Assembly: GCA_023269565.1 (NCBI GenBank)
Contig: JAHFTD010000006.1
Span: 1 to 48,799 of the forward strand
Direction: 5' to 3'
Length of the DNA: 48,799 nt
From: Opitutaceae bacterium
Lineage (GTDB): Bacteria > Verrucomicrobiota > Verrucomicrobiia > Opitutales > Opitutaceae
Shown here: positions 1 through 44,896 of the stretch, one piece after another
How the letters are laid out: each line of letters starts with the position of its first letter
How positions within the stretch are numbered: the stretch's first letter is position 1
Position numbers and translations under genes: made by a program
Notes under the pieces: model-generated
Databases searched by the model: none
What the model was told of the DNA's origin: nothing
Seen by the model: the letters and a program-made list of their open reading frames with translations, nothing else

Positions 1-211
1 GCGATGTTGAAAGTCAGCAGTCGGTGGCGCGACATGCCGGAAGTTATCACATTATCCCGCTTTTCAACAGTCCTGGCTGTGCCGTTCGATCGGCCGGGTG
101 CGGCGGTTCGGAGGCTTTGGCATTGCCGACGAAATTGCGCCGCCCTTGACCTCGCCGAGACGCATCGCTTCGCTCCCAAAGGCGACGAGGCGCGCATTCC
201 CCATCCATGAA
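1..211. other. left edge, no gene recognised
   Basis: This stretch precedes trpF. Short open frames cross it on both strands, but none resembles a known protein and they overlap one another, as expected by chance in GC-rich DNA. An in-frame upstream extension of trpF to position 98 exists, but the conserved start of the TrpF fold lies at 212. Nothing else is visible apart from whatever promoter trpF uses. Confidence 0.4.
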
Positions 212-862
212 ATGAGCACTGACATCCGGCTGAAAGTCTGCGGCCTAACCACGGAGGCCGATGCCCGTGCGGCCCATGCCGCGGGGGCGGATTACCTCGG
301 CTTTGTCTTCTACCCGCCATCGCCACGCAATATTTCGCCCGCTCAATTTGCGCGGATGCGGCCGCAACTGCCGCCGCGGAAATTTGTCGCCGTCTGCGTC
401 GCGCCCTCCGCCGACGACCTCGCGCGTCTGGCCGGACTGGAGTTCGATTATTTCCAGATCCATTTCAAGGCGCACGAGCCGCCGCCGCACCTTGCCGGCT
501 GGTCCGGCGCCGTCGGCCGCTCCCGGCTGTGGCTCGCGCCAAAACTTGCGCCCCCGCAGGAAATCAAGCCCGAATGGCTGTCCTTGGCCGCGACCTTCCT
601 GCTCGATGCGTTTCATCCGGAAAAATTCGGCGGCACCGGACAGTTCGGCGATTGGGAATATTTCCGGTGTCAGCAATCGGCTCATCCCGCACACGAGTGG
701 ATTCTCTCCGGCGGATTGAATCCCGGCAACATCGTCGCCGCCGTGACGACTACTGGCGCCAAGTTCGTCGATGTGAACAGTGGCGTCGAATCTTCCCCCG
801 GTCGCAAGGATCCCGCGAAACTGCAGTCGCTGGCCGCCGCGCTGGGCCGCCTGAAAAAGTGA
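212..862 (+). CDS. trpF: phosphoribosylanthranilate isomerase TrpF
   Basis: Isomerises N-(5'-phosphoribosyl)anthranilate to CdRP, the third step of tryptophan synthesis, in the cytosol. The 216-residue product is a typical single-domain TIM barrel. It opens with the KVCGLT motif (residues 7-12) that carries the catalytic cysteine, continues with GADYLGFVFYPPSPR, and ends with the phosphate-binding DVNSGVE segment. The open frame extends upstream to 98, but residues before the ATG at 212 do not match the family, so 212 is chosen. The gene lies alone on the + strand and faces the - strand trp operon, with trpA ending 41 bp away. The pathway is therefore split into two convergent units. A weak 6-bp GC hairpin (883-899) lies between the stop codons. 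Confidence 0.95.
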   Translation: MSTDIRLKVCGLTTEADARAAHAAGADYLGFVFYPPSPRNISPAQFARMRPQLPPRKFVAVCVAPSADDLARLAGLEFDYFQIHFKAHEPPPHLAGWSGAVGRSRLWLAPKLAPPQEIKPEWLSLAATFLLDAFHPEKFGGTGQFGDWEYFRCQQSAHPAHEWILSGGLNPGNIVAAVTTTGAKFVDVNSGVESSPGRKDPAKLQSLAAALGRLKK

Positions 863-903: not shown

Positions 904-1644
904 TTACTCCGCATGAAGTGCGGCCCGCAGCGACTTGCCCTCATACAGCGCCGCCACCACCGCGCTGCCGACGACGGGCACCGCGCCCATCGCCCGCACC
1001 GACTCCAGCGAGACGGCATCCGCGAGCCCAAATCCGACCGTCAATGGACGGCCCGTGATTTTCCGGAGGGCCGCGAGACGGTCGCGGACCAGTCCAAGAT
1101 CCGGCGCACCCGCCGCACCGGTCACACCCAGCCGGGCGACGACATAGGCAAAACGCTGCGCAAAGGGCACCGACGGTCCCGGATCGGGCCGCTCCTGCAA
1201 CAAACGCATGGCGCGATCCAGACTCGTGGTCGGCGCCAGCAAGGGCACGAGGGGATAACCCGCGGCGCGCAGTTCCCTCTCGAATTCGGCTTCCTCGCCA
1301 TGAGGCAGATCGACGATGAGCAGGCTCCGCACCGGCGTTGGACGCAACAATGCAATCAGCCGCCCGGTCCCCAATTGCAGCAGGGGGTTGAAATAACTAA
1401 ACAAAATCACCGACGGACTGGATGGACAGCGCGCCAGGCATTCCAGCACTTGGACTGGTGTGACACCGCGCGCGATTGCCCGCTGGGCCGCAGCCTGCAG
1501 CACCGGGCCGTCGGCAATCGGGTCGCTGTGCGGCAATCCCACCTCGATGGCTTCAAGGTCGAGCGCGGCCGCCTCGGCCAGCAGTGCGGGCAGTCGCTCC
1601 AACGAAGGTGAGCCCGCCATGATGAAGGGCAGCACGGGTTTCAC
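904..1644 (-). CDS. trpA: tryptophan synthase alpha subunit
   Basis: Cleaves indole-3-glycerol phosphate to indole and glyceraldehyde-3-phosphate, passing indole to TrpB in the alpha2-beta2 complex. The 246-residue protein has the family length. Near residues 35-45 it shows the segment EVGLPHSDPIADGP, which carries the catalytic Glu and Asp and the loop around them. It is the last gene of the trpEGDCBA operon. Its ATG overlaps the trpB stop by 4 nt (ATGA), suggesting reinitiation and balanced TrpA/TrpB synthesis. No clear terminator follows it before the convergent trpF. Confidence 0.95.
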   Translation of the reverse strand: MKPVLPFIMAGSPSLERLPALLAEAAALDLEAIEVGLPHSDPIADGPVLQAAAQRAIARGVTPVQVLECLARCPSSPSVILFSYFNPLLQLGTGRLIALLRPTPVRSLLIVDLPHGEEAEFERELRAAGYPLVPLLAPTTSLDRAMRLLQERPDPGPSVPFAQRFAYVVARLGVTGAAGAPDLGLVRDRLAALRKITGRPLTVGFGLADAVSLESVRAMGAVPVVGSAVVAALYEGKSLRAALHAE

Positions 1645-2846
1645 GCCGCACCTCCCGACTTGAGCGCGCGCTCGTAGCTGGCGATGTCCTTGTCGCCGCG
1701 GCCGCTCAACCCGAGCAGGACGACGCGGACGCCTTCACGGGCCAGTCGCGGAAGTGCCGCGAGCGCGTGGCTGCTTTCCAGCGCGGGCAGGATGCCTTCC
1801 AGTGCGCATAGTTGCTGTGCCGCGGCGAAGGCCTCCTCGTCGGAAGCCCGCCAGACTTCCACTCGGCCGTCCACGGCCAGTGCAGCGAGTTCCGGTCCGA
1901 GCGCCGGATAATCGAGTCCCGCGCTGATACTGGCGGTCCCGGCGGTGTAGCCGTGGCTGTCCTGCAACAGCAGTGTCTTGCAGCCGTGCAGCACGCCGGT
2001 GCGGCCGCCGTCGAGGCGGGCCGCGTGCTCGCCCAGTTCCCGGCCATGGCCGCCGGCCTCGACCGCCATCCGGCGCAGGTTGTCCTCGGCAAAAGGGACG
2101 AGCAGGCCGAGTGCATTGCTGCCGCCACCCGCGCAGGCGACGATGGCCTCGGGCAGCGTTCCGTGAGCAGCGAGCACCTGTCGGCGCGCCTCGTCGCCAA
2201 TCACCCGTTGGAAGGAGCGCACGATGGTCGGAAAGGGATGCGGTCCCAGCGCCGAGCCCAGGATGTAATGTGCCCGGTCGCAGCGGGCCGCCCAGGCGCG
2301 CATCGCCTCGTTCACCGCCGCCCGGAGGGTGCCCTGGCCGGCGGTGACCGGAATCACGTTCGCGCCGAGCAATTTCATGCGCGCGACATTCGGCGCCTGA
2401 CGGGCCATGTCGGTCGCGCCCATGTAGACCGTGCAGACGAGACCGAGGCGGGCGCAGGCGGCCGCGGTCGCCACCCCGTGCTGTCCGGCCCCGGTTTCGG
2501 CGATGATCTCGGTCTTGCCCATGCGCCGGGCGAGCAGCGCCTGGCCGAGCGCATTGTTGATTTTGTGCGCGCCGGTGTGCGCAAGGTCCTCGCGTTTGAG
2601 ATAAAGCGCCTGCAGGCCCGTCGCACGGGCCAGCTGGGGCGCGGGCGTCAGCGGCGTGGCCCGGCCGGCGAACTCCCGCAGCTCGCGCGCGAGTGCGACG
2701 CCAAAGTCCGGGTCGGCTTGCGCGGCGCGAAACGCCGCCTCGAGTTCGAGCAGCGGGGTCATGAGTGTCTCGGGGGCGTAGCATCCGCCGAAGGCGGCGC
2801 GCCCGAAGCGCGTAGGCAGGACAAACTCTGCGGGAGGAACTGTCAT
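1641..2846 (-). CDS. trpB: tryptophan synthase beta subunit
   Basis: PLP-dependent condensation of indole with serine to give tryptophan. The 401-residue protein belongs to the TrpB1 type that partners TrpA. The PLP lysine sits in HTGAHKINNALGQAL, the glycine-rich phosphate cup is ACAGGGSNALG, and ETGAGQHGVATA is the characteristic TrpB loop. It begins 4 nt inside the end of trpC and ends 4 nt inside trpA. Genes on both sides are trp genes, so the assignment is secure. Confidence 0.97.
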   Translation of the reverse strand: MTVPPAEFVLPTRFGRAAFGGCYAPETLMTPLLELEAAFRAAQADPDFGVALARELREFAGRATPLTPAPQLARATGLQALYLKREDLAHTGAHKINNALGQALLARRMGKTEIIAETGAGQHGVATAAACARLGLVCTVYMGATDMARQAPNVARMKLLGANVIPVTAGQGTLRAAVNEAMRAWAARCDRAHYILGSALGPHPFPTIVRSFQRVIGDEARRQVLAAHGTLPEAIVACAGGGSNALGLLVPFAEDNLRRMAVEAGGHGRELGEHAARLDGGRTGVLHGCKTLLLQDSHGYTAGTASISAGLDYPALGPELAALAVDGRVEVWRASDEEAFAAAQQLCALEGILPALESSHALAALPRLAREGVRVVLLGLSGRGDKDIASYERALKSGGAA

Positions 2847-3667
2847 AGCGGCAGAGGGGCGAAGATGTCCTGCAGGAACCGGCGCTGATTCGCGCTGCGC
2901 ATGAGCGCCTCGCCGATCAGCACGGCGTCAAAGCCCGCGGCAAACGCCGCCCGGGCGGCGGCCGGCGTCCGCACCCCGCTCTCGCGGATCAGCACGGCCC
3001 TGGGAAACAGCTCGCGCAGCGGCGCCGCCGGTGATTCGCGCACGGTAAAGGTGGCCAGGTCGCGCGCGTTGAGGCCGACGAGCCGCGCCTCCGCCTCCTG
3101 CGCATAGGGTGCTTCATCCAGCCCGTGCAGCTCGATCAATGGCTCAAGGCCCAACGCTCGCGCCGCCTCCGCAAAGAGCGCGGTGTGCCCGCGCAACACG
3201 CGGGCGATCAGCAGCACGGCAGCCGCGTCACTGTCCGCGGCCTCGTGCAGATGAAGCGGGGAGAGGACAAAACCCTTGTAGAGCACGGGCACCAGAAACC
3301 GCGCCGCGCGCCGCACGTGCGCCGCGGAGCCGTGAAAAAACTGCGGCTCGGCCAGCACGGAGAAGCAGTCCACCCCGCCGACCTGATAGGACTCGAGCTG
3401 CGCCTCCAGCGTGACCTTCGGGGCAAAGGCTCCAAGGCTGGGTGAAGCCAGCTTGAATTCGCCGATGACAGCGCCCCCGCGTTTCTCCCGGGCGCGGCGC
3501 AGGGCCAGCTCGAAGCGGCCGGCCTCCTGCCGACCCAGCGCGCGCCGGCCGGCCGCCGCCGTGGTGTCCGTGACCCGCCGCAGCTCCGCGGCCAGCACCC
3601 GTCCGAGATGCGAATCGCCGGGCACGCCACTGTCCTGCACCATTTGGATGGGGTCGGGGAATTTCAT
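2843..3667 (-). CDS. trpC: indole-3-glycerol phosphate synthase
   Basis: Closes the indole ring of CdRP with decarboxylation. The 274-residue TIM barrel is the monofunctional type and is not fused to TrpF, which lies separately at the left edge. Recognisable motifs are EFKLASPSLG (canonical E-x-K-x-x-SPS-x-G), VLYKGFVLSP (canonical VL-x-K-x-F with catalytic Lys), GLNARDL and the phosphate-binding ESGVRTP. The sequence is rather diverged from enterobacterial TrpC: the Asp that commonly follows the catalytic Lys is Gly here. The core catalytic residues are nevertheless present, and position in the operon supports the call. Coupled to trpD by a 4-nt overlap. Confidence 0.93.
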   Translation of the reverse strand: MKFPDPIQMVQDSGVPGDSHLGRVLAAELRRVTDTTAAAGRRALGRQEAGRFELALRRAREKRGGAVIGEFKLASPSLGAFAPKVTLEAQLESYQVGGVDCFSVLAEPQFFHGSAAHVRRAARFLVPVLYKGFVLSPLHLHEAADSDAAAVLLIARVLRGHTALFAEAARALGLEPLIELHGLDEAPYAQEAEARLVGLNARDLATFTVRESPAAPLRELFPRAVLIRESGVRTPAAARAAFAAGFDAVLIGEALMRSANQRRFLQDIFAPLPL

Positions 3668-4698
3668 GTTTCCTGCGCGGGGAAAGGCAGTGAAATTCCT
3701 TCGGGCAACCTGACCCGCACTTCGACGAACACCGACCGCAGCGCCGTAAGCGGCAGCTGGCGGTGGAGCAGCAGTCCGAAGGCCGCCTGCAGGGCCACGG
3801 CATCGGCGACCGCGGTCCGGTAATGCGGGTGCCCGGAACCGTGAACAATCCCGCGGGCCAGCTCCAGGGCTTCCTCGCGGCTGCGCACAGCGAGCGCGCC
3901 GGCTGGGACCGCAATCGCACCGAGAGCACCCGGCACGATCCGTGTGGTGGTGAGAACGCGACCGGCGGCGATCTCCACCACCTCGGTCGGTCCTTCGAGG
4001 GAGGCTTCATCCATACCGTGGCCGGTTGCAGTCGTGCCATGGATCACGAAGGCCCGGGTGACGCCGGTGGTAGCGAGCGCGGCAGCCATCGGCTCGAGCA
4101 AGGTGGCCCGCGCCACCCCGAGCACCATGCAGGCGGGCTGTGCCGGGTTGAGCAACGGGCCCATCAGATTGAAAATCGTCGGCACCCCGAGTCGCCGGCG
4201 GATGTCGCGCAGGCGCACCAGCTGCGGGTGGTAGGCCGATGCGAGCAGAAAGGCGAAGCGCGAGCGCGGCAGGTCGCCGTGCAACAGCTCCGGGGCGCGC
4301 TGCAGGTCGTAGCCCAGAGCCTCCAGCAGATCGGCGCTGCCGCACAGGCTCGTGGCGGCGCGGTTGCCATGTTTGGCGACCGTCACGCCAAACGCGGGCA
4401 GCAGCAGTGCGGCCAGCGTGCTGAGGTTGACCGTCGAGACTCCGCCGTGGCTGTCGCCCCCAGTCCCGACGACGTCGAGCACCGGCTGCACCACTGGAGG
4501 AAACGGCCTGGCCGCTGCGCGCAGCTCCCAGGCGAAAGCCGACAGTTCCTCGGCCGTGGGTTCGCGCTGCGCGAGCAGCGCCAAGCCGGCACCGACCACG
4601 AGCGGGTCGGCGGCGGGATCGAGGAAATAGGCCAGGAGTTCGCGCGCTTCGTCGAACGGAAGCGGGCGGGCGGGATTGTGGGTGGCAAGCAGGTTCAT
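3664..4698 (-). CDS. trpD: anthranilate phosphoribosyltransferase
   Basis: Transfers phosphoribose from PRPP to anthranilate. The 344-residue protein has the normal length of the monofunctional enzyme. It shows the PRPP/Mg signature GTGGDSHGG followed by STVNLST, then AKHGNRAATSLCGSAD, and the second metal motif in the C-terminal half (GMDEAS). It is coupled to the upstream amidotransferase gene by a 4-nt overlap, with trpC following in the same way. Confidence 0.96.
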   Translation of the reverse strand: MNLLATHNPARPLPFDEARELLAYFLDPAADPLVVGAGLALLAQREPTAEELSAFAWELRAAARPFPPVVQPVLDVVGTGGDSHGGVSTVNLSTLAALLLPAFGVTVAKHGNRAATSLCGSADLLEALGYDLQRAPELLHGDLPRSRFAFLLASAYHPQLVRLRDIRRRLGVPTIFNLMGPLLNPAQPACMVLGVARATLLEPMAAALATTGVTRAFVIHGTTATGHGMDEASLEGPTEVVEIAAGRVLTTTRIVPGALGAIAVPAGALAVRSREEALELARGIVHGSGHPHYRTAVADAVALQAAFGLLLHRQLPLTALRSVFVEVRVRLPEGISLPFPAQET

Positions 4699-5270
4699 GG
4701 GAAAAATCGGGCGAGGTGGAGAAAATTGGCGAGCAGGCGGAGCCCTGCGGGCGTGAGAATGCTCTCGGGATGGAATTGCACGCCCCAGCGGGGGAGCGCG
4801 GCATGCGCCACCGCCATGATCTCGCCTTCGGAGGACACGCCGGTGACGCGCCAGCAGGCAGGCAGCCCGGCGCCATCGGCAATCAGGCTGTGATAGCGGC
4901 CGACCGGCAAATTCGTTGGCAGGCCGGCGAACAGCCCCGTGCCGTCATGCCGGCAGGCGGCGGCTTCGCCGTGCCGCGGCACGAGTGCGTGCGTGATGCG
5001 CCCTCCGGTGGCGGCGATGAGCGCTTGGTGACCGAGACAGACCCCGAGCACGGGCACGTCCCAATCCGACGCCGCGATTTCCATGTGGGCGGAGCACTCG
5101 GCCGGGTGGCCCGGCCCGGGACTGAGCACGACGGCGCGGGGGGAGAGTGCGCGGGCCTCCGCGAGTGCGATTGTGTCGTGCCGGCGGACGCAGACCTCGG
5201 CGCCGAGGACGGCGAACGCCTGCACCAGATTGTAGGTGAAGGAGTCATAGGCATCGATGAGCAGGATCAT
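4695..5270 (-). CDS. trpG: anthranilate synthase component II (glutamine amidotransferase)
   Basis: Class I glutamine amidotransferase that feeds ammonia to TrpE. The 191-residue protein carries the three expected blocks: LSPGPGHPAE (oxyanion region), GVCLGHQAL with the nucleophilic Cys, and VQFHPESIL with the catalytic His-x-Glu. Such subunits can also serve aminodeoxychorismate synthase (PabA), and the sequence alone cannot exclude a dual role. The position between trpE and trpD, with 4-nt overlaps on both sides, makes tryptophan synthesis the main job. Confidence 0.94.
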   Translation of the reverse strand: MILLIDAYDSFTYNLVQAFAVLGAEVCVRRHDTIALAEARALSPRAVVLSPGPGHPAECSAHMEIAASDWDVPVLGVCLGHQALIAATGGRITHALVPRHGEAAACRHDGTGLFAGLPTNLPVGRYHSLIADGAGLPACWRVTGVSSEGEIMAVAHAALPRWGVQFHPESILTPAGLRLLANFLHLARFFP

Positions 5271-6619
5271 GTGGCAGCGCTCCCTTCGTCCAAGGTGACG
5301 CCCAAGGCCGCCGCCACGGCCGTCATTTTCTGAACGGTTTCAAGGTATTCCCGGGCGGGCTCGGAAGCGCGGACGATGCCCGCGCCGGCTTGCAGGTAAG
5401 CCGCGCCGCCGGCATAAATTGCCGTGCGCAGGATGAGCGCCGTGTCGAGCGCGCCGTCGGCGCCGAGGCGCAGCAACGCGCCGCCGTAGGGCCCGCGGTG
5501 TTCGCCTTCCATTTCGACGATGCGCTGCGCGGCCCGGATTTTCGGGGCGCCACTGACCGTGCCGGCGGGAAACGCGGCGGCGAGGACATCGAGCGCATCC
5601 AGGCCGGTTCTCACACGGCACCTCACCGTGGTCGTGATATGCAGCAACCGGCTGGTGCGGTGGATGGCGAGGGGATGTTCGACCCGCACGCTGCCGGACA
5701 CGGCGACGCGCCCGAGGTCGTTGCGGGCCAGGTCGACGAGCATCTGGTGTTCCGCGAGTTCCTTGGGGTCGGCCAGCAGGGCGCGGGCGCGGCGTTCGTC
5801 CTGCGCCTCATTGCCGGTGCGCGCCGCGGTGCCGGCGATGGGCAGGGTTTCCGCCTCGCCGCCGGCCACCCGCACCAGCATTTCCGGCGAGGCGCCGACC
5901 AGCGCACAACCGGGCCATTCCAGCAGAAAGGCGTAGGGGCTCGGGTTGGTGCGCCGCAACCGGCGGTAGGCAGTCAGCGGCGAGGGCGGAGCCGTAACCC
6001 TGATCCGCCGGCTCGGCACCACCTGATAGACATCGCCCTCGCGGATGAGGGTCTGGCTGCGGCGCACGAGCGCCTCGTAGTCGGTGCGCGTTCGCAGCGG
6101 TTGGGCAACCGGCGCCCCGACCTCCTCCACCGGCGCGGCCTGCGGTGATTCCAGCAACTCGGCAAGCCTGGCAAGACGCACGTTCCCCTCGGACTCCGTG
6201 GCCGCCAGCACCTGCAGCTCGGCGGTTTGATACAGGTGATCGAACACCACCGCGGCAGCGATCAGTTTCATGTGGACGGCGGGCAGGCCCAGCGAATTGG
6301 CCGCCGGCAGTGGCACGCTCGGTTCGAGTCCGGCCAGGGCCTCGAACCCGACATAGCCCGCCAGACCAACCCCGACCGGCAAGCCCACGCCGCAATCCAC
6401 TCGCGGCAGGAATCCGCGCACGGCATCGACCCAGCCGCGGGCTGGCGCCGGCAATGTCACCTCGCCCCCGGTGTCGAGCAGGACAAAGGAATGCCGGCCG
6501 ACGCGTTCGCCGCGCTCGGCGCTCTCCAGCAGCAGGCCCGCCCCGGCGGGGCGCAATTGCAGGTAGGCGGCCAGCGGCGTGAGCAGGTCGGCGGGGATGG
6601 TGTTGCGATAGAGTTTCAT
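5267..6619 (-). CDS. trpE: anthranilate synthase component I
   Basis: Converts chorismate and ammonia to anthranilate, the first committed step. The 450-residue protein shows an N-terminal LLES motif near residues 30-33, which in TrpE forms part of the tryptophan feedback site. In the chorismate-binding domain it shows PIAGTAAR, HQMLVDLARNDLGRV, PAGTVSGAPK and GPYGGALLRLG. The LLES motif favours TrpE over the homologous PabB. It is the first structural gene of the operon. Its ATG comes only 6-7 nt after the T-run of the attenuator terminator, so there is no room for a strong Shine-Dalgarno outside the hairpin region. Confidence 0.95.
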   Translation of the reverse strand: MKLYRNTIPADLLTPLAAYLQLRPAGAGLLLESAERGERVGRHSFVLLDTGGEVTLPAPARGWVDAVRGFLPRVDCGVGLPVGVGLAGYVGFEALAGLEPSVPLPAANSLGLPAVHMKLIAAAVVFDHLYQTAELQVLAATESEGNVRLARLAELLESPQAAPVEEVGAPVAQPLRTRTDYEALVRRSQTLIREGDVYQVVPSRRIRVTAPPSPLTAYRRLRRTNPSPYAFLLEWPGCALVGASPEMLVRVAGGEAETLPIAGTAARTGNEAQDERRARALLADPKELAEHQMLVDLARNDLGRVAVSGSVRVEHPLAIHRTSRLLHITTTVRCRVRTGLDALDVLAAAFPAGTVSGAPKIRAAQRIVEMEGEHRGPYGGALLRLGADGALDTALILRTAIYAGGAAYLQAGAGIVRASEPAREYLETVQKMTAVAAALGVTLDEGSAAT

Positions 6620-6625
6620 CGGATG

Positions 6626-6657
6626 AAAACAAAAAGCCCGGTCACAGGGACCGGGCT
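6626..6657 (-). terminator. trp attenuator terminator hairpin
   Basis: On the - strand a perfect 9-bp stem, AGCCCGGTC / GACCGGGCT, closes a 5-nt loop (CCTGT) and is followed by TTTTGTTTT. It lies between the trp leader ORF and the trpE start codon, the position expected for the 3:4 terminator of an attenuator. Confidence 0.9.
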
Positions 6658-6715
6658 CGGGGAAAGGCAGGCGCGCAGGACAGGATTGTCAGCGTCGCGT
6701 CGCTTTCTCCGAGCC
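6654..6715 (-). promoter_or_regulatory. trp antiterminator pairing (segments 2 and 3)
   Basis: Segment 6703-6715, directly after the Trp codons in the leader ORF, reads GGCTCGGAGAAAG on the - strand. Segment 6654-6666 reads CTTTCCCCGAGCC. They pair over 12 of 13 positions, with one A/C mismatch. Segment 6654-6666 includes the 5' part of the terminator stem, so the two structures are mutually exclusive. A ribosome stalled at the Trp codons would leave 6703-6715 free to pair and so block the terminator. The alternative structure is seen in the sequence; the mechanism is inferred from classical trp attenuation. Confidence 0.8.
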
Positions 6716-6778
6716 ACTATGCCACCACCAAGCCCAACCTTGGGCCGGTGCGAAACAGAGGGAACGGAGGTGCGACAT
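6689..6778 (-). CDS. trpL: trp operon leader peptide
   Basis: A 29-residue ORF (ATG 6778, TGA 6689) upstream of trpE. Residues 15-20 read WAWWWH, giving four Trp codons within five, far above chance. It is followed by the antiterminator and terminator segments, so it is read as the sensor peptide of the trp attenuator. No good Shine-Dalgarno is visible before the ATG. The peptide needs no function of its own; ribosome position at the Trp codons is the signal. Confidence 0.85.
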   Translation of the reverse strand: MSHLRSLCFAPAQGWAWWWHSGSEKATRR

Positions 6779-6844
6779 GCCGGCACGGGAGCGATTCGCG
6801 GTAATCTTGTCAAGCCGCAGCTGGAAAATTAGCGACAGTCGGGA

Positions 6845-6881
6845 TCAGCCCATAATCACCGCGACGTCACAACCCTGTCAC
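6845..6881 (-). promoter_or_regulatory. possible promoter of the trp leader
   Basis: On the - strand, GTGACA (6881-6876) is separated by 18 bp from GATTAT (6857-6852), a moderate sigma70-like pair. It would start transcription near 6845 and give a leader of about 65 nt before trpL. A TTGACA also occurs at 6813-6808 but lacks a recognisable -10 at the right distance. The assignment is tentative. Confidence 0.3.
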
Positions 6882-6914
6882 GGGAATGCAACACCGATGC
6901 TCCAGATTGCGTTC

Positions 6915-7298
6915 ATGGTATCGCCGCGAAAAATCCTGTCGGTCGAGGATGAACCCGACTTCGCCGAACTCATCCGCTACCACTTGGAACGGGGCGGCTA
7001 TGCAGTCCGCACCGCAGGCACCGGATGGGATGCCCTAGAGTCGATTCGGGCTGAACGGCCTGATCTGATTCTACTCGACCTAATGCTGCCTGATCTGGAT
7101 GGCTTTGGTTTGTGCGAATTGCTTCGCCGCGATCCGGCCACCGCGACAATTCCCATTATTGTGGTATCTGCTTGGTCGACCACCGACTCTCGAAACCTTG
7201 GACTGGAGCTCGGTGCCCTCGATTACATCATCAAGCCGTTCAATCCCCGCTACCTCATGGAAAGGGTTAATTATTTCATCGAGCAAGGGGCAGCCTGA
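6915..7298 (+). CDS. receiver-only response regulator
   Basis: A 127-residue stand-alone CheY-like receiver domain with no output domain. The acidic pocket (VEDEPD), the phospho-acceptor Asp55 in LLDLMLP, the switch Ser85 (VVSAWS) and Lys107 (IIKPF) are all present, so it should be phosphorylatable. An in-frame ATG at 6897 would add six residues; 6915 is preferred because the domain begins immediately after it. It is transcribed divergently from the trp leader. No histidine kinase is adjacent and the partner is unknown. Confidence 0.85.
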   Translation: MVSPRKILSVEDEPDFAELIRYHLERGGYAVRTAGTGWDALESIRAERPDLILLDLMLPDLDGFGLCELLRRDPATATIPIIVVSAWSTTDSRNLGLELGALDYIIKPFNPRYLMERVNYFIEQGAA

Positions 7299-7381
7299 CC
7301 ACTGGGCAAAACGCTTGGAATGAAAGGGCTAATTGGGTCGCCGACTGCAGTTTTCAACAGCGCAGTGCGGACTCATTAAAA

Positions 7382-7459
7382 TGGGGCGGCCAACGGGACT
7401 CGAACCCGCGACCCCAAGATTCACAATCTTGTGCTCTAACCAACTGAGCTATGACCGCC
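7382..7459 (-). tRNA. tRNA-His (GTG)
   Basis: On the - strand a full cloverleaf can be drawn. The anticodon stem CAAGA/TCTTG encloses loop TTGTGAA with anticodon GTG. The T arm is GCGGG TTCGAGT CCCGT. The acceptor carries an encoded extra 5' G (position -1) opposite C73, as expected for histidine tRNA, and an encoded CCA end. It sits between the response regulator and the DUF47 gene, antisense to both. Confidence 0.95.
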
Positions 7460-7584
7460 GTGAAAAAGGACCGGCGAACATCCCCGCCGCCCCGCCGGCT
7501 GTCAACCCTTCTCCTCCGGCGGCCAAAGTGCCCTCGGCGCGTAAATCGTCTCGCGTCCGTCCGCGTCGCGGCTACCTTTAGGGT

Positions 7585-39229: not shown

Positions 39230-42200
39230 GTGGTTAAACCCGCCCCCGAGTCCATCCGCCTGCGCGGCGTCCGCCAGAACAACCTCAAGGGTTTCGATCT
39301 CGACCTGCCGCTGGGGAAATTCATCGCCGTCACCGGCCTCAGCGGCGCGGGCAAGTCCTCGCTCGTCTTCGACACGCTGCACGCCGAGGGCCAGCGCCGC
39401 TACGTCGAGACCTTCTCCGCCTACACCCGCCAGTTCCTCGAGCTGCTCGACAAGCCCAAGGTCGACTCCGTCGAGAACATCCGCCCGTCCATCGCCATCG
39501 AGCAGACCAACACGGTCAAGACCTCCCGCTCCACCGTCGGCACCATGACGGAGCTGACCGATTTTGGCAAAATCTGGTTCAGCCACGTCGCCGAGTGCTT
39601 CGATCCCGCGACCGGTGAAAAGGTCGAGGACGACAACCCGTCGACCATTTGGGCCAAGACCCTCGCCGCCCACCCCGCCGCCACGCTGCTGCTCTGCTTC
39701 CGCATCACCAAGCCGGGAAATCTGGAGTGGTCCGAGGTGCTTACCAGCATCAAAGGCCAGGGCTACACGCGCGTGCTGGCACCGGACAAGTCCGGCACAC
39801 TCAGCGTCGCCAAACTCGACGAACTCCTCGCCGCCAAGCCCGGCGTAGCGCTGAAGCATGCCGCTCATCTCTTCGTCATCCAAGACCGGCTCCGTATCTT
39901 GGCGGAGAACAAATCGCGCTTTCTGGAGGCGACCGAAGCCGCCTTGCACTTCGGCGGAGGCGAGTTGCAGCTGTTCGCCGCCGACGGTTTCGCGCCCGCC
40001 GGACATTATTCGCGTGGGCTCCACTCGCCGAAGACCGGCCGCACCTTCCGGCCCGCCTCGCCCGGTCTCTTTTCCTTCAATTCCCCGCTCGGTGCCTGCC
40101 CGAAATGCCGCGGCTTCGGTCGGGTCATTGACATCGACTACCGCCTCGCGATTCCCGATCACTCCGTGTCGATCGACGACGGCGCGATCAAACCGTTCGA
40201 AGGAGAGATCTTCAGCGAATCCAAGCGCGATCTCCTGAAGTTCACCAGGAAACTCAAGCTGCCGACCAACATCCCCTTCGCCGGGCTCACACCCGCGCAG
40301 AAGGCCTTCGTCATTGATGGTGAACCGGGCTATGCCTTGGAACCGGGCCGGCAGTGGCCGGATTGCTGGTATGGGATCAGGGGGTTCTTTCGCTACCTCG
40401 AAGCGCGGACCTACAAGATGCATGTGCGCGTCTTTCTTTCGCGCTACCGCGCCTACAACCGCTGCCCGGACTGCGGCGGCTCGCGCCTCCAGCCCGAGGC
40501 GCTCTGCTGGCTATGGCGCGGCTGCACGCTGCCGCAACTCTACCAGCTGCCGGTCAGCGAACTGCTGGCGCTGATTCAGCAACACGGCGCGGCCCAGACG
40601 GGCGGGGCGCCCACACCCCGCAACAACGCGGCCTCCGTCCACCAACGCGACCTCGCCCACGATTCCATTGTCACGCGGCTGCGCTACCTGGAACAGGTTG
40701 GCCTCGGCTACCTGACCCTCGACCGCAGCTCGCGCACGCTCTCCGGCGGCGAGGTCCAGCGCGTCAATCTCACCTCCTGCCTCGGCACCTCGCTCGTCGA
40801 CACGCTGTTCGTGCTCGATGAGCCTTCCGTCGGCCTGCATCCGCGCGACATCGACCGGCTGCTCGGCATCATCCGCACGCTCACCGACTCCGGCAACACC
40901 GTCGTCGTCGTCGAGCACGACGAGGCCATGATCCGCGCCGCCGACCATGTGATCGAAATCGGTCCCGAGCCCGGCGCCCGCGGCGGCGAGGTCGTTTTTC
41001 AGGGCAGCGTCGGTGAAATGCTGGGTGCGCCGCGGAGCATCACGGGGGCTTATTTCTCCGGCCGTCAGCGGCTCGATGCCCCGGCAGCTCGGCGTCCAGT
41101 GGCCGGGGCGAAGTGGCTGCATTTCACCGGCGCCACCAAGCACAACCTGCAAAACCTCTCCTTCCGGCTGCCGTTGCAGCGTCTGGTCTGCCTCTCCGGC
41201 GTCTCCGGCTCGGGCAAGTCCACCCTGCTCGACAACGTCATCCATCAGGGCCTGCTCACACAGCGCAGCCAGATGACCGAAGATCCGGGGTCCATCGGGG
41301 GCATCAAATCCGGCATTGAATTCAGCGAAGTCGTGCTGGTCGACCAGTCGCCACTCAGTCGCACCCCGCGCTCGAATCCCGCCCTTTACTGTGAGGCATG
41401 GGAACTGATCCGCGAACTCTACGCCGCGACGCCCGGCGCGCTCGCGGCCGGTTTTAATCACTCCAGCTTCTCCTTCAACAGCGGCGAGGGCCGCTGCGAC
41501 CACTGCCAGGGCCTCGGCAGCGAGCGCGTCGAGATGCAGTTCCTTTCCGACGTTTTCGTGCCCTGTCCCATCTGCTCGGGCCGGCGCTTCAAGCCCGAGG
41601 TGCTCGCCATCCAGTGGGACGGCCAGTCCGTCTCCGACCTGCTCGCCACGACCGTCACCGACGCGCTGGCTTTCTTCGCCACCCAGCCCGCCATCCGCGC
41701 CCGTCTCGCCGCGCTGGCTGAGGTTGGCCTCGGCTATCTGCCGCTGGGCCAGCCGCTCAACACTCTTTCCGGCGGCGAGTCCCAGCGGCTCAAGCTCGTC
41801 CGCTACCTCTCCGATTACACCGCCGACTCGTCACTCGTGACCAGGCACATGTCACTGGCCTCCCCATCCGGTGCCCTGCTTCTGTTGGACGAGCCCACCA
41901 CCGGTCTCCACCGCCACGACGTCAAGCGATTGCTCGAGGTGCTGCAACGCATCGTAGACCGCGGCCACAGCATCGTCGTCATCGAGCACAACCTCGACGT
42001 CCTCAAGTCCGCCGACTGGATCCTTGAGATCGGTCCCGGGGCCGGCGCGAGTGGCGGCCGCATCGTCGCCGAGGGCACTCCCGAGGACATCGCGCGCGCC
42101 GCCGCCGCCACCTCGCCGTTCCTCAAGCAGGCACTCGCGGAATGTCATATAATATATGACAATCTCCACAGGGCCGCCGAGGACGCCGCGCCCTACCAGA

Positions 42201-44896
42201 CGCCGCTTTCCCTGTCGGCTGGCGAGCTGACCGTGCTCGGCGCCCGTGAGAATAATCTCAAAAATATCTCGGTCTCCATTCCGCACCGCCAGCTCTCGGT
42301 CGTGACCGGCGTTTCCGGTTCGGGCAAATCGACCCTCGCTTTCGACATCATCTTTTCCGAGGGCCAGCGGCGCTTCATGGAGTCGATGTCGCCCTACGCG
42401 CGGCAGTTCGTCGAGCAGCTGCCGCGGCCCGACATCGACCGGCTCACCGGCATCCCGCCGACCGTGGCCATCGAGCAGCGGGTGACGCGCGGCTCGCGCA
42501 AGTCCACCGTTGCCACCATCACCGAGGTCGCGCAATACCTCCGCCTGCTCTACGCCCGGCTCGGCGTGCAGCATCATCCCGACACCGGCCGGCCCGTCAC
42601 ACCACTCTCGCCCGCCCAGCTGCGACGATTGCTCGACCGGACGCTCGCCACGTCTGCGGCGAGAAAGGCGAAACACCTCTACCTTTGCGCCCCGCTTATC
42701 CGCGGGCGCAAGGGCCACCACGAGCCTATCGCCAAGTGGATTGGCAGACAGGGCTTTGAGCTCATGCGCGCCGATGGCCGGCTACTGCGCGTCGACACTT
42801 TCACCAAGCTCGACCGCTACAAGGAGCACGACATCGAGGTTGTCGTCGCCGATTTGAAAATGAAACCCGCCAGGGAGACCGGCGTTACGCTGGCGCTCGC
42901 CTTAAAACTTGGCAAGGGCTCCTGCTTCCTCCTCACGCCCAACGGCCGGATTCTCTCCTGGTTCTCCACCACGCGCACCGACGTCGAGACCGGCGAGTCC
43001 TTTCCCGAGCTCGACCCAAAGCATTTCTCGTTCAACTCGCCACGCGGCTGGTGCCCGACCTGCCGCGGCCACGGCCGCATCTACGACTGGATGCTCAAAC
43101 CCGACGAGAACGAAGAGATGTCCGACGAGGTCGCCGACGCGCTGCGCTCGTTCGACCCCAACGACCCGGCGGCGCACGGCAACCGGTGCCCGACGTGCCA
43201 CGGGGCACGGCTCAACCGCATCGCCCGCGCCGTGAAGCTTCCGCTCAAACGCGGCGTGCCGATCTCGCTGCCCGACCTCCTCCGGCTCACCCCTGACGAG
43301 CTTCTCGCCACGTTGCGCAGTCTCAAACTCGAGAGCCGCGGTCGGCTGATCACGCAGGATATCGTGCCGCAGATCGAGGAACGGCTCCGGTTCCTCGCAC
43401 ATGTTGGCCTCGACTACCTGTCGTTGGAGCGCCCGACCGAGACGCTCTCCGGCGGCGAGGCCCAGCGCATCCGCCTCGCGGCGCAACTCGGCTCAAATCT
43501 CTCCGGGGTGCTCTACGTCCTCGACGAGCCTTCCATCGGTCTCCACGCCCGAGACAACGCGCGGTTGGTCGAGACGCTCCTGACGCTCCGCGAGAAGGGC
43601 AATACGGTGCTCGTGGTCGAGCACGACGAGGTCGTGATGGCGCGTGCCGACCGCATCATCGACCTCGGGCCCGGCGCCGGCATCCACGGCGGCGAAGTCT
43701 TGGCCAATGAAACCCCCACGGCGATTAAGAAGAACGCCTCGTCGCTGACGGGCCTGTTCCTCACCAAGGGTATCGCGCACCCCCTGCGCGGGGCTTACCG
43801 GAAGCCGGCGCCGGAATGGCTGGAATTGCGCGGCGTGAATTACCGCAATCTCAAGCATCAGTCCCTGCGCCTGCCGCTGGGCCGGCTTATCATGGCCTGC
43901 GGGCCCAGCGGGGCCGGCAAATCCACGCTCTTCCGCGATATCCTCCACCCCGCCGTCACCTGCGCCATCAAGCGACGGAAGGCGAAACTCACCGGGAAGG
44001 ATTTTTGCAAGCACGCCGCGTTCGAGGATGACACCGGCGCCGCGATCGCACCGTTCTCCGCACTCACCGGAGCGGACGGCTTTCGCTCCGTCATCGAGGT
44101 TGACCAGTCGCCCATCGGCAAGACGCCTCGCTCCACCCCCGCCACCTATCTCGGCATCTTCGACCGCATCCGGCAGTTTTTTGCCTCGTTGCCCGAGGCG
44201 AAGATGCGCGGCTACACCGCCAGCCGTTTTTCGTTTAACACGGCCGGCGGCCGCTGCGAGACCTGCGCTGGCGCCGGCCGGATCAAACTGGAGATGGCCT
44301 TCATGGCCGACTCCTACCTGCCGTGCGACGCCTGCGGCGGCTCGCGCTACGGGCACGACCTCGCGGACATCACCTGGAAGGGGAAGACCATCGGCGACGT
44401 CCTGCGGCTCTCCTTCGATGAAGCGCGGGCGTTCTTTGATTTCCACTCGCAGCTCTCGCAGGTGTGTCAACTGATGGTCGATTGCGGCCTCGGCTACCTG
44501 ACGCTCGGCCAGAGCAGCCCGTCGCTCTCCGGCGGCGAGGCGCAGCGGCTCAAGCTCGTCACCGAACTCACGCGCGGCCTGCAGACCTACAAGGAACGAT
44601 CACACGATATCCGCATCCGTAATCTCTACCTCCTCGAGGAGCCGACCATCGGCCTGCACCTCAGCGACTGCGAGAAACTCATCCGCGTGCTGCACAGCCT
44701 CGTCGACCATGGCCACACGGTAGTCGTCATCGAGCACCACCTCGATCTGCTCGCCGAGGCCGACTGGCTCGTGGAACTCGGCCCCGGCGGCGGACCGAAC
44801 GGCGGCGTGATCATCTACCAAGGCCCGCTTGCCGGCCTCCTCAAGGTCAAGTGCAGCCCGACCGCGCCGTATCTGCGGCGGAAATTGAAAAAGTAA
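39230..44896 (+). CDS. uvrA: double-length excinuclease subunit UvrA
   Basis: Damage-recognition ATPase of nucleotide excision repair. The 1888-residue protein is about twice the usual 940 and consists of two UvrA units in tandem. Four Walker A motifs (near residues 36, 660, 1026 and 1555) and four LSGGE-x-QR signatures (near 503, 845, 1405 and 1765) are present. Paired CxxC zinc modules occur in each half ([64 protein letters not shown]). A single chain thus equals a UvrA dimer. Start is GTG 39230. Similar fused UvrA is known in Chlamydiae. The junction (about residue 970) holds an AT-rich palindrome. Confidence 0.95.
42143..42161. repeat. palindrome inside uvrA at the junction of the two halves
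   Basis: TGTCATAT-AAT-ATATGACA is a perfect 8-bp inverted repeat, strikingly AT-rich inside a GC-rich gene. It encodes the linker residues around CHIIYDN between the two UvrA units. It matches the intergenic hairpin at 19276-19296 at 17 of 21 positions, with compensatory changes in the stem. Confidence 0.75.

Follow-up and report, generated by a model that had tools for sequence, protein, structure and literature searches.

In the trp operon of E. coli, the leader trpL has 14 codons, is preceded by a Shine-Dalgarno sequence and has its stop codon ahead of segment 2 of the attenuator. In Sinorhizobium meliloti, the transcript starts at the ATG of the leader (trpL, whose RNA is known as rnTrpL) and is leaderless, and the attenuator precedes trpE(G) (PMC7298713). 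Classical trp attenuators are also found outside the Proteobacteria in Streptomyces and Corynebacterium (PMC1262725), and TrpL1 of S. lividans is leaderless and contains the motif WWW (PMC8079986). As of 2010, the only groups with documented leader-peptide attenuators were Proteobacteria and Actinobacteria, to which Firmicutes were then added, and hardly any attenuator predicted in Acidobacteria had an assigned function (PMC2965389). A literature search in which all terms were required jointly found no paper on trp attenuation in Verrucomicrobia or Acidobacteria. Entire trp operons have reportedly moved laterally between lineages and displaced a whole pathway, as described by Xie et al. in 2004 (BMC Biol 2:15, cited in PMC1173090); the donors were reportedly enteric bacteria and the recipients coryneforms or Helicobacter.

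Here we describe a trp attenuator in an Opitutaceae bacterium (assembly GCA_023269565.1, fragmented into 153 contigs and 84% complete). The DNA analysed, referred to as the window, comprises positions 1 to 48,799 (48,799 nucleotides) of contig JAHFTD010000006.1. The element has in common with the E. coli trp attenuator (RF00513) a leader ORF with a Trp cluster, mutually exclusive 2:3 and 3:4 pairings, a U-run and a position upstream of trpE. It differs from that system in that the leader has 28-31 codons in nearly all members, no Shine-Dalgarno sequence precedes it, and the ORF contains segment 2, which would be masked both as the ribosome passes and when it stands at the stop codon. The S. 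meliloti trpL is likewise a ribosome-dependent attenuator, likened to the present one by its features alone, and differs in encoding a 14-aa peptide and in preceding trpE(G) only. The attenuators of Streptomyces and Corynebacterium have different leader sequences, and in S. lividans trpE is monocistronic. The present case, unlike those of Xie et al., connects Acidobacteriota with Lysobacteraceae and Opitutaceae, and its operon comes with a recognisable attenuator. We consider it highly probable (about 0.88) that a ribosome-mediated attenuator controls trpEGDCBA at this locus, and that operon and attenuator were acquired jointly, by horizontal transfer, from a Holophagae/Lysobacteraceae-type lineage.

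Anatomy of the attenuator

The element lies on the minus strand directly before trpE and is read backwards from 6778 to 6626 (Table 1); the original prediction named no strand. The original prediction had described a complete trp attenuator in this genome, and its anatomy, comparison with shuffled sequences and a covariance model all agree with that description. In particular, the 29-codon leader ORF with the motif WAWWWH was found as predicted (W15, W17, W18 and W19 are the Trp codons, four in five); its stop codon is at 6691-6689, and no in-frame start lies upstream of its ATG. Segments 2 and 3 form the expected antiterminator of 12 pairs in 13, interrupted by a single A.C mismatch. The predicted terminator is also present: its stem has nine perfect pairs and an extra G.U pair, is followed by TTTGTTTT and has a folding energy of -18.4 kcal/mol, and it is the best terminator-like site within 6000-7500. 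Nucleotides 6654-6658 are common to the antiterminator and terminator helices, which are therefore mutually exclusive. In the minimum-energy fold of the window sequence without a ribosome, segment 1 pairs with 6699-6711; note that this 1:2 stem is predicted in the window and absent from the consensus fold of the alignment.

Table 1. Coordinates of the attenuator elements and trp genes in the window.
Feature	Positions	Strand	Remarks
-35 promoter element	6808..6813	(-)	TTGACA; 35 nt upstream of leader ATG
Expected -10 position	6785..6790	(-)	TCCCGT, weak match; placed by spacing and the relatives' consensus
Leader ORF (trpL-like)	6689..6778	(-)	MSHLRSLCFAPAQGWAWWWHSGSEKATRR, 29 aa; 40 homologous leaders in alignment
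Segment 1, 5' side of 1:2 protector stem	6765..6776	(-)	First leader codons; predicted fold without ribosome
Sensor codons Trp-Ala-Trp-Trp-Trp	6722..6736	(-)	Trp cluster in same place in relatives
Segment 2, antiterminator 5' arm	6703..6715	(-)	GGCTCGGAGAAAG; inside leader ORF
Segment 3, antiterminator 3' arm	6654..6666	(-)	CTTTCCCCGAGCC; overlaps terminator 5' arm
Segments 3:4, intrinsic terminator hairpin	6634..6658	(-)	GAGCCCGGTC CCTGT GACCGGGCTT
Terminator U-run	6626..6635	(-)	TTTTTGTTTT
trpE, anthranilate synthase component I, acquired type	5267..6619	(-)	Pfam Anth_synt_I_N and Chorismate_bind
trpG	4695..5270	(-)	4-nt overlap with trpE; Pfam
trpD	3664..4698	(-)	4-nt overlap with trpG; Pfam
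trpC	2843..3667	(-)	4-nt overlap with trpD; Pfam
trpB, acquired type	1641..2846	(-)	4-nt overlap with trpC; identities, tree, AU test; Pfam
trpA	904..1644	(-)	4-nt overlap with trpB; Pfam
trpF (PRAI), native Opitutaceae type	194..862	(+)	Convergent with operon; Pfam

When the whole window was shuffled 60 times with dinucleotides preserved, no short ORF with four Trp codons in five arose on either strand, and the 165-nt region folds 4.4 standard deviations better than its shuffles, none of 200 being as good. Chance is thus a very unlikely source of the element. A Trp-rich leader ORF, an intrinsic terminator before the first structural gene and a mutually exclusive, covarying antiterminator are found together here, and the element before the trp genes is almost certainly a classical ribosome-sensing trp attenuator. 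At the same site, the Rfam model for the trp leader (RF00513, Trp_leader) scored 14.5 bits (E 2.1), against a gathering score of 41, and seven related loci compared with Rfam gave no match.

A putative leaderless promoter and the proposed switch

TTGAC(A) precedes the leader ATG by 35-38 nt in 50 of 51 relatives, the distance being 37 nt in 36 of these. In the exception (L034) TTGAC lies at 28 nt, a distance that becomes 37 nt if the leader begins at the second ATG. In the majority of relatives TTTCAT occurs 6-7 nt ahead of the leader ATG (-13 to -8 in a position-wise count). Shine-Dalgarno matches of at least four bases were absent before the leader in the window and in 48 of the 51 relatives. 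The spacing of TTGACA, together with the position of the -10 element in relatives, would place the start of transcription on the A of the leader AUG or on a neighbouring base. Taken with the lack of a Shine-Dalgarno match, this fixed spacing suggests that the leader mRNA is probably leaderless and that the ORF is probably translated as such. Because TCCCGT is a poor match at -10, the leaderless start in the window itself is one that we infer, and the sequence is best regarded as a candidate promoter in the Opitutaceae host. (Another candidate, GTGACA-18-GATTAT at 6881-6852, was not favoured, as the conserved TTGACA is located elsewhere.)

Transcription beginning at or next to the leader AUG would allow a ribosome to load at the leaderless 5' end and to trail RNA polymerase. 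When Trp-tRNA is scarce, the ribosome would stall at the Trp codons, and segments 2 and 3 would be able to pair; the terminator would then be incomplete and trpEGDCBA would be transcribed. When Trp-tRNA is plentiful, the ribosome would reach the stop codon and cover part of segment 2, the 3:4 hairpin would form, and transcription would halt before trpE. Without translation the 1:2 stem would form and the terminator would again win.

Energy computations are consistent with these states. With Trp15, Trp17 or Trp18 in the A site and segment 4 still unmade, the antiterminator region reaches -33.5 kcal/mol. A ribosome that has reached the stop codon, taken to shield about 15 nt beyond the P site (up to 6679), leaves only the terminator able to form (-19.3). 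In the absence of a ribosome, the combination of the 1:2 stem and the terminator is best (-71.7). Segment 2 begins only two codons past the last Trp codon, Trp19, and a ribosome with that codon in the A site would therefore cover its first bases; in this model the earlier Trp codons are better placed for stalling, and Trp19 is the weak point of the geometry. At computed equilibrium a partial antiterminator coexists with the terminator, which argues that the switch would depend on kinetics.

Conservation and covariation among relatives

The same element precedes trpEGDC(F)BA at 51 loci from Holophagaceae, related Acidobacteriota and a few Lysobacteraceae. At all 51, upstream of this type of trpE, a leader of about 28-31 codons carries a Trp cluster near codons 16-20 and is followed, about 25-50 nt past its stop, by a terminator of one shared sequence type. 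Terminator pairs are intact in 99.2% of alignment cells, with changes on both sides at four of nine pairs, and antiterminator pairs in 97.8% of cells over 41 sequences, with such changes at three of ten. For both helices, all 500 shuffles as well as slid versions of the helix fell below the real alignment in paired fraction, double-change cells and covariation score. Shuffles did reach the antiterminator on two of the five measures (the number of double-change pairs and the number of pair types) and the terminator on one (the number of pair types). Since some of these counts were matched, we regard the covariation as good, not overwhelming. Moreover, at three loci (L061, L062 and L072) an antiterminator C-G pair has become U-A with a change of the leader residue from Ser to Leu. 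As this substitution keeps the pairing and alters the peptide, it is base pairing rather than leader peptide sequence that appears to be conserved.

A covariance model built without the window sequence scored the window site at 54.3 bits (E 1.3e-8), with the next best hit at 18.2 bits, and gave no significant hit at native Opitutales trp loci or at other trp loci. Together with the fold and the covariation of both helices, this held-out score supports the attenuator that the original prediction had described. When the window was included in the model, matches were found in at least 21 of 247 Acidobacteriota genomes, at least 1 of 200 Lysobacterales genomes and at least 1 of 388 Verrucomicrobiota genomes, the last being the source genome only. 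(These are lower bounds, as the large genome scans scored 10-20 candidates per genome.) On these sequence comparisons, a covarying group of trp attenuators in Acidobacteriota (Holophagae), lying outside Rfam, is now defined. Two weaker Acidobacteriota matches (G546:C9:16393-16493, 50.5 bits, and G587:C26:36041-36143, 31.8 bits) may be divergent members.

A few Lysobacteraceae (L052, L055, L063, L068, L070 and L076) carry the same operon and attenuator. Their occurrence, against a lower bound of 1 match to the model in 200 Lysobacterales genomes, looks like a second transfer between phyla. In several Geothrix loci (L045, L058, L059, L060, L065 and L073) a GC-rich, repeat-like insert of about 80 nt or more separates the terminator from the conserved trpE start.

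Origin of the operon

The window TrpE is 38-46% identical to its Opitutales counterparts over full-length matches, as compared with mostly 57-66% to those of Holophagaceae/Geothrix and a few Lysobacteraceae, and up to 66-67% to those of Holophagae. TrpB is likewise 53-59% identical to that of most Opitutales genomes, versus 71-79% to Holophagae and Lysobacteraceae proteins. The best matches outside Opitutales come from Holophagaceae/Geothrix (Acidobacteriota) and a few Lysobacteraceae, where the gene order is trpEGDC(F)BA; identities to that group are 63-75% for TrpG, 56-64% for TrpD, 50-59% for TrpC and 60-71% for TrpA. Neighbouring genes show the opposite affinity. For the trpF product, identity is 44-57% with the counterparts in nearly all Opitutaceae and 28-31% with those encoded in Holophagae/Lysobacteraceae operons, and on the same contig PiT is mostly 64-77% identical to Opitutaceae proteins and PhoU 67-71% to the closest of them. 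The operon is thus flanked by native genes, trpF on one side and PiT and PhoU on the other, which together with the foreign-type identities argues that the contig is of Opitutaceae origin and the operon foreign. Its GC content is about 70%, whereas most of the immediately adjoining sequence has 59-66%.

Phylogenetic analysis gave the same picture. The window TrpE joined the Holophagae/Lysobacteraceae clade with support of 100, branching at its base, and TrpB fell at the base of Holophagae (sampling for these trees was guided by the query peptides). Grouping with native Opitutales was rejected by the AU test for both TrpE (p 2.4e-4) and TrpB (p 3.8e-9). At an E value of 1e-95 or better, this type of TrpE was found in 1 of 388 Verrucomicrobiota genomes, that of the source only.

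As a check, the original prediction had proposed an alignment of trpE upstream regions from Opitutaceae. The outcome was negative, and the view that the element represents attenuation in this family or phylum is not supported: in the upstream regions of native Opitutales trpE genes no Trp-rich leader with a terminator was found, the element occurs at none of these loci, and in the phylum the source genome provides the sole match. (Pairs of Trp codons do occur in native Opitutales loci; they are scattered, have no adjacent terminators and were treated as chance.) Because the element is conserved in Holophagae and a few Lysobacteraceae and not in native Opitutales, the operon appears to have been acquired with its attenuator. 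To judge from these comparisons, the lineage of the attenuator and of the six genes occurs mainly in a different phylum, Acidobacteriota, and attenuator and operon probably arrived together, moving between distantly related bacteria; we infer both the direction and the time of this transfer.

Within trpEGDCBA (904-6619), all five junctions are 4-nt overlaps; relatives have gaps at some junctions, with room for trpF between trpC and trpB. It seems that the acquired trpF was lost, the operon compacted and the native trpF put to use.

Alternative explanations

Could the operon come from a Holophagaceae-like organism in the same sample, through a chimeric or mis-binned contig? The fragmented, incomplete assembly, the GC content of the operon above its immediate surroundings and the lack of a same-genus relative among the genomes searched would all fit such an artefact. 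We nonetheless judge it unlikely, as native genes flank the operon within a single 48.8-kb contig, with the end of trpF 42 nt from trpA, and a chimera would need two junctions within native sequence. Moreover, the assembly holds no other trpB of comparable score, a native-type trpE was not found there, and no relative compared has a TrpE more than about 67% identical to this one, so that no close donor is evident. If the contig is sound, the attenuator might instead be an ancestral element of Verrucomicrobiota or Opitutaceae that was inherited vertically and lost elsewhere. The host does belong to Opitutaceae by kinship and by the native genes on the contig; this history is nevertheless most improbable given native Opitutales trpE loci that lack the element, an element and TrpE type confined to the source genome among the 388 Verrucomicrobiota (for the element, a lower bound), and the rejection of an Opitutales grouping for both TrpE and TrpB.

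Other readings concern what the element does. Between the terminator hairpin and the trpE ATG at 6619, which has no Shine-Dalgarno sequence, there are 14 nt, and the original prediction took this short distance to suggest that ribosome loading on trpE depends on the same fold. Control could then be translational, with the leader ORF and the fold governing ribosome loading or the leader aiding reinitiation. We regard this as very unlikely, since members keep both the hairpin and the U-run, the hairpin does not include the trpE start, and about 106 nt separate that start from the terminator in at least two relatives (L045 and L065); an obligatory coupling of trpE ribosome loading to the fold is not supported. 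That tryptophan is sensed here by some other device (a T-box, TRAP-type binding or a riboswitch), or that repression acts alone, is barely conceivable: the Trp codons and the covarying alternative helices explain the element, and the only Rfam matches at gathering score in the window are two tRNA genes.

The joint acquisition of operon and attenuator raises the idea of a portable module, in which a leaderless promoter, a Trp attenuator and trpEGDC(F)BA move between phyla as a unit and work on arrival, because only ribosomes, Trp-tRNA and RNA polymerase would be needed. Such a module would be established in Holophagae and sporadic in Lysobacterales, and in one Opitutaceae lineage would have replaced all native trp genes but trpF; we lean slightly towards this view. 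The presence of the attenuator with its operon in a verrucomicrobial genome makes it testable whether an RNA switch can travel across phyla and continue to exert control. Cultured Geothrix species carry the attenuator, and the mechanism can be tested there.

Elsewhere in the window, an ORF of 1888 aa at 39230-44896 on the plus strand has duplicate UvrA domains (Pfam UvrA_inter in two stretches), as in a very large UvrA-like protein.
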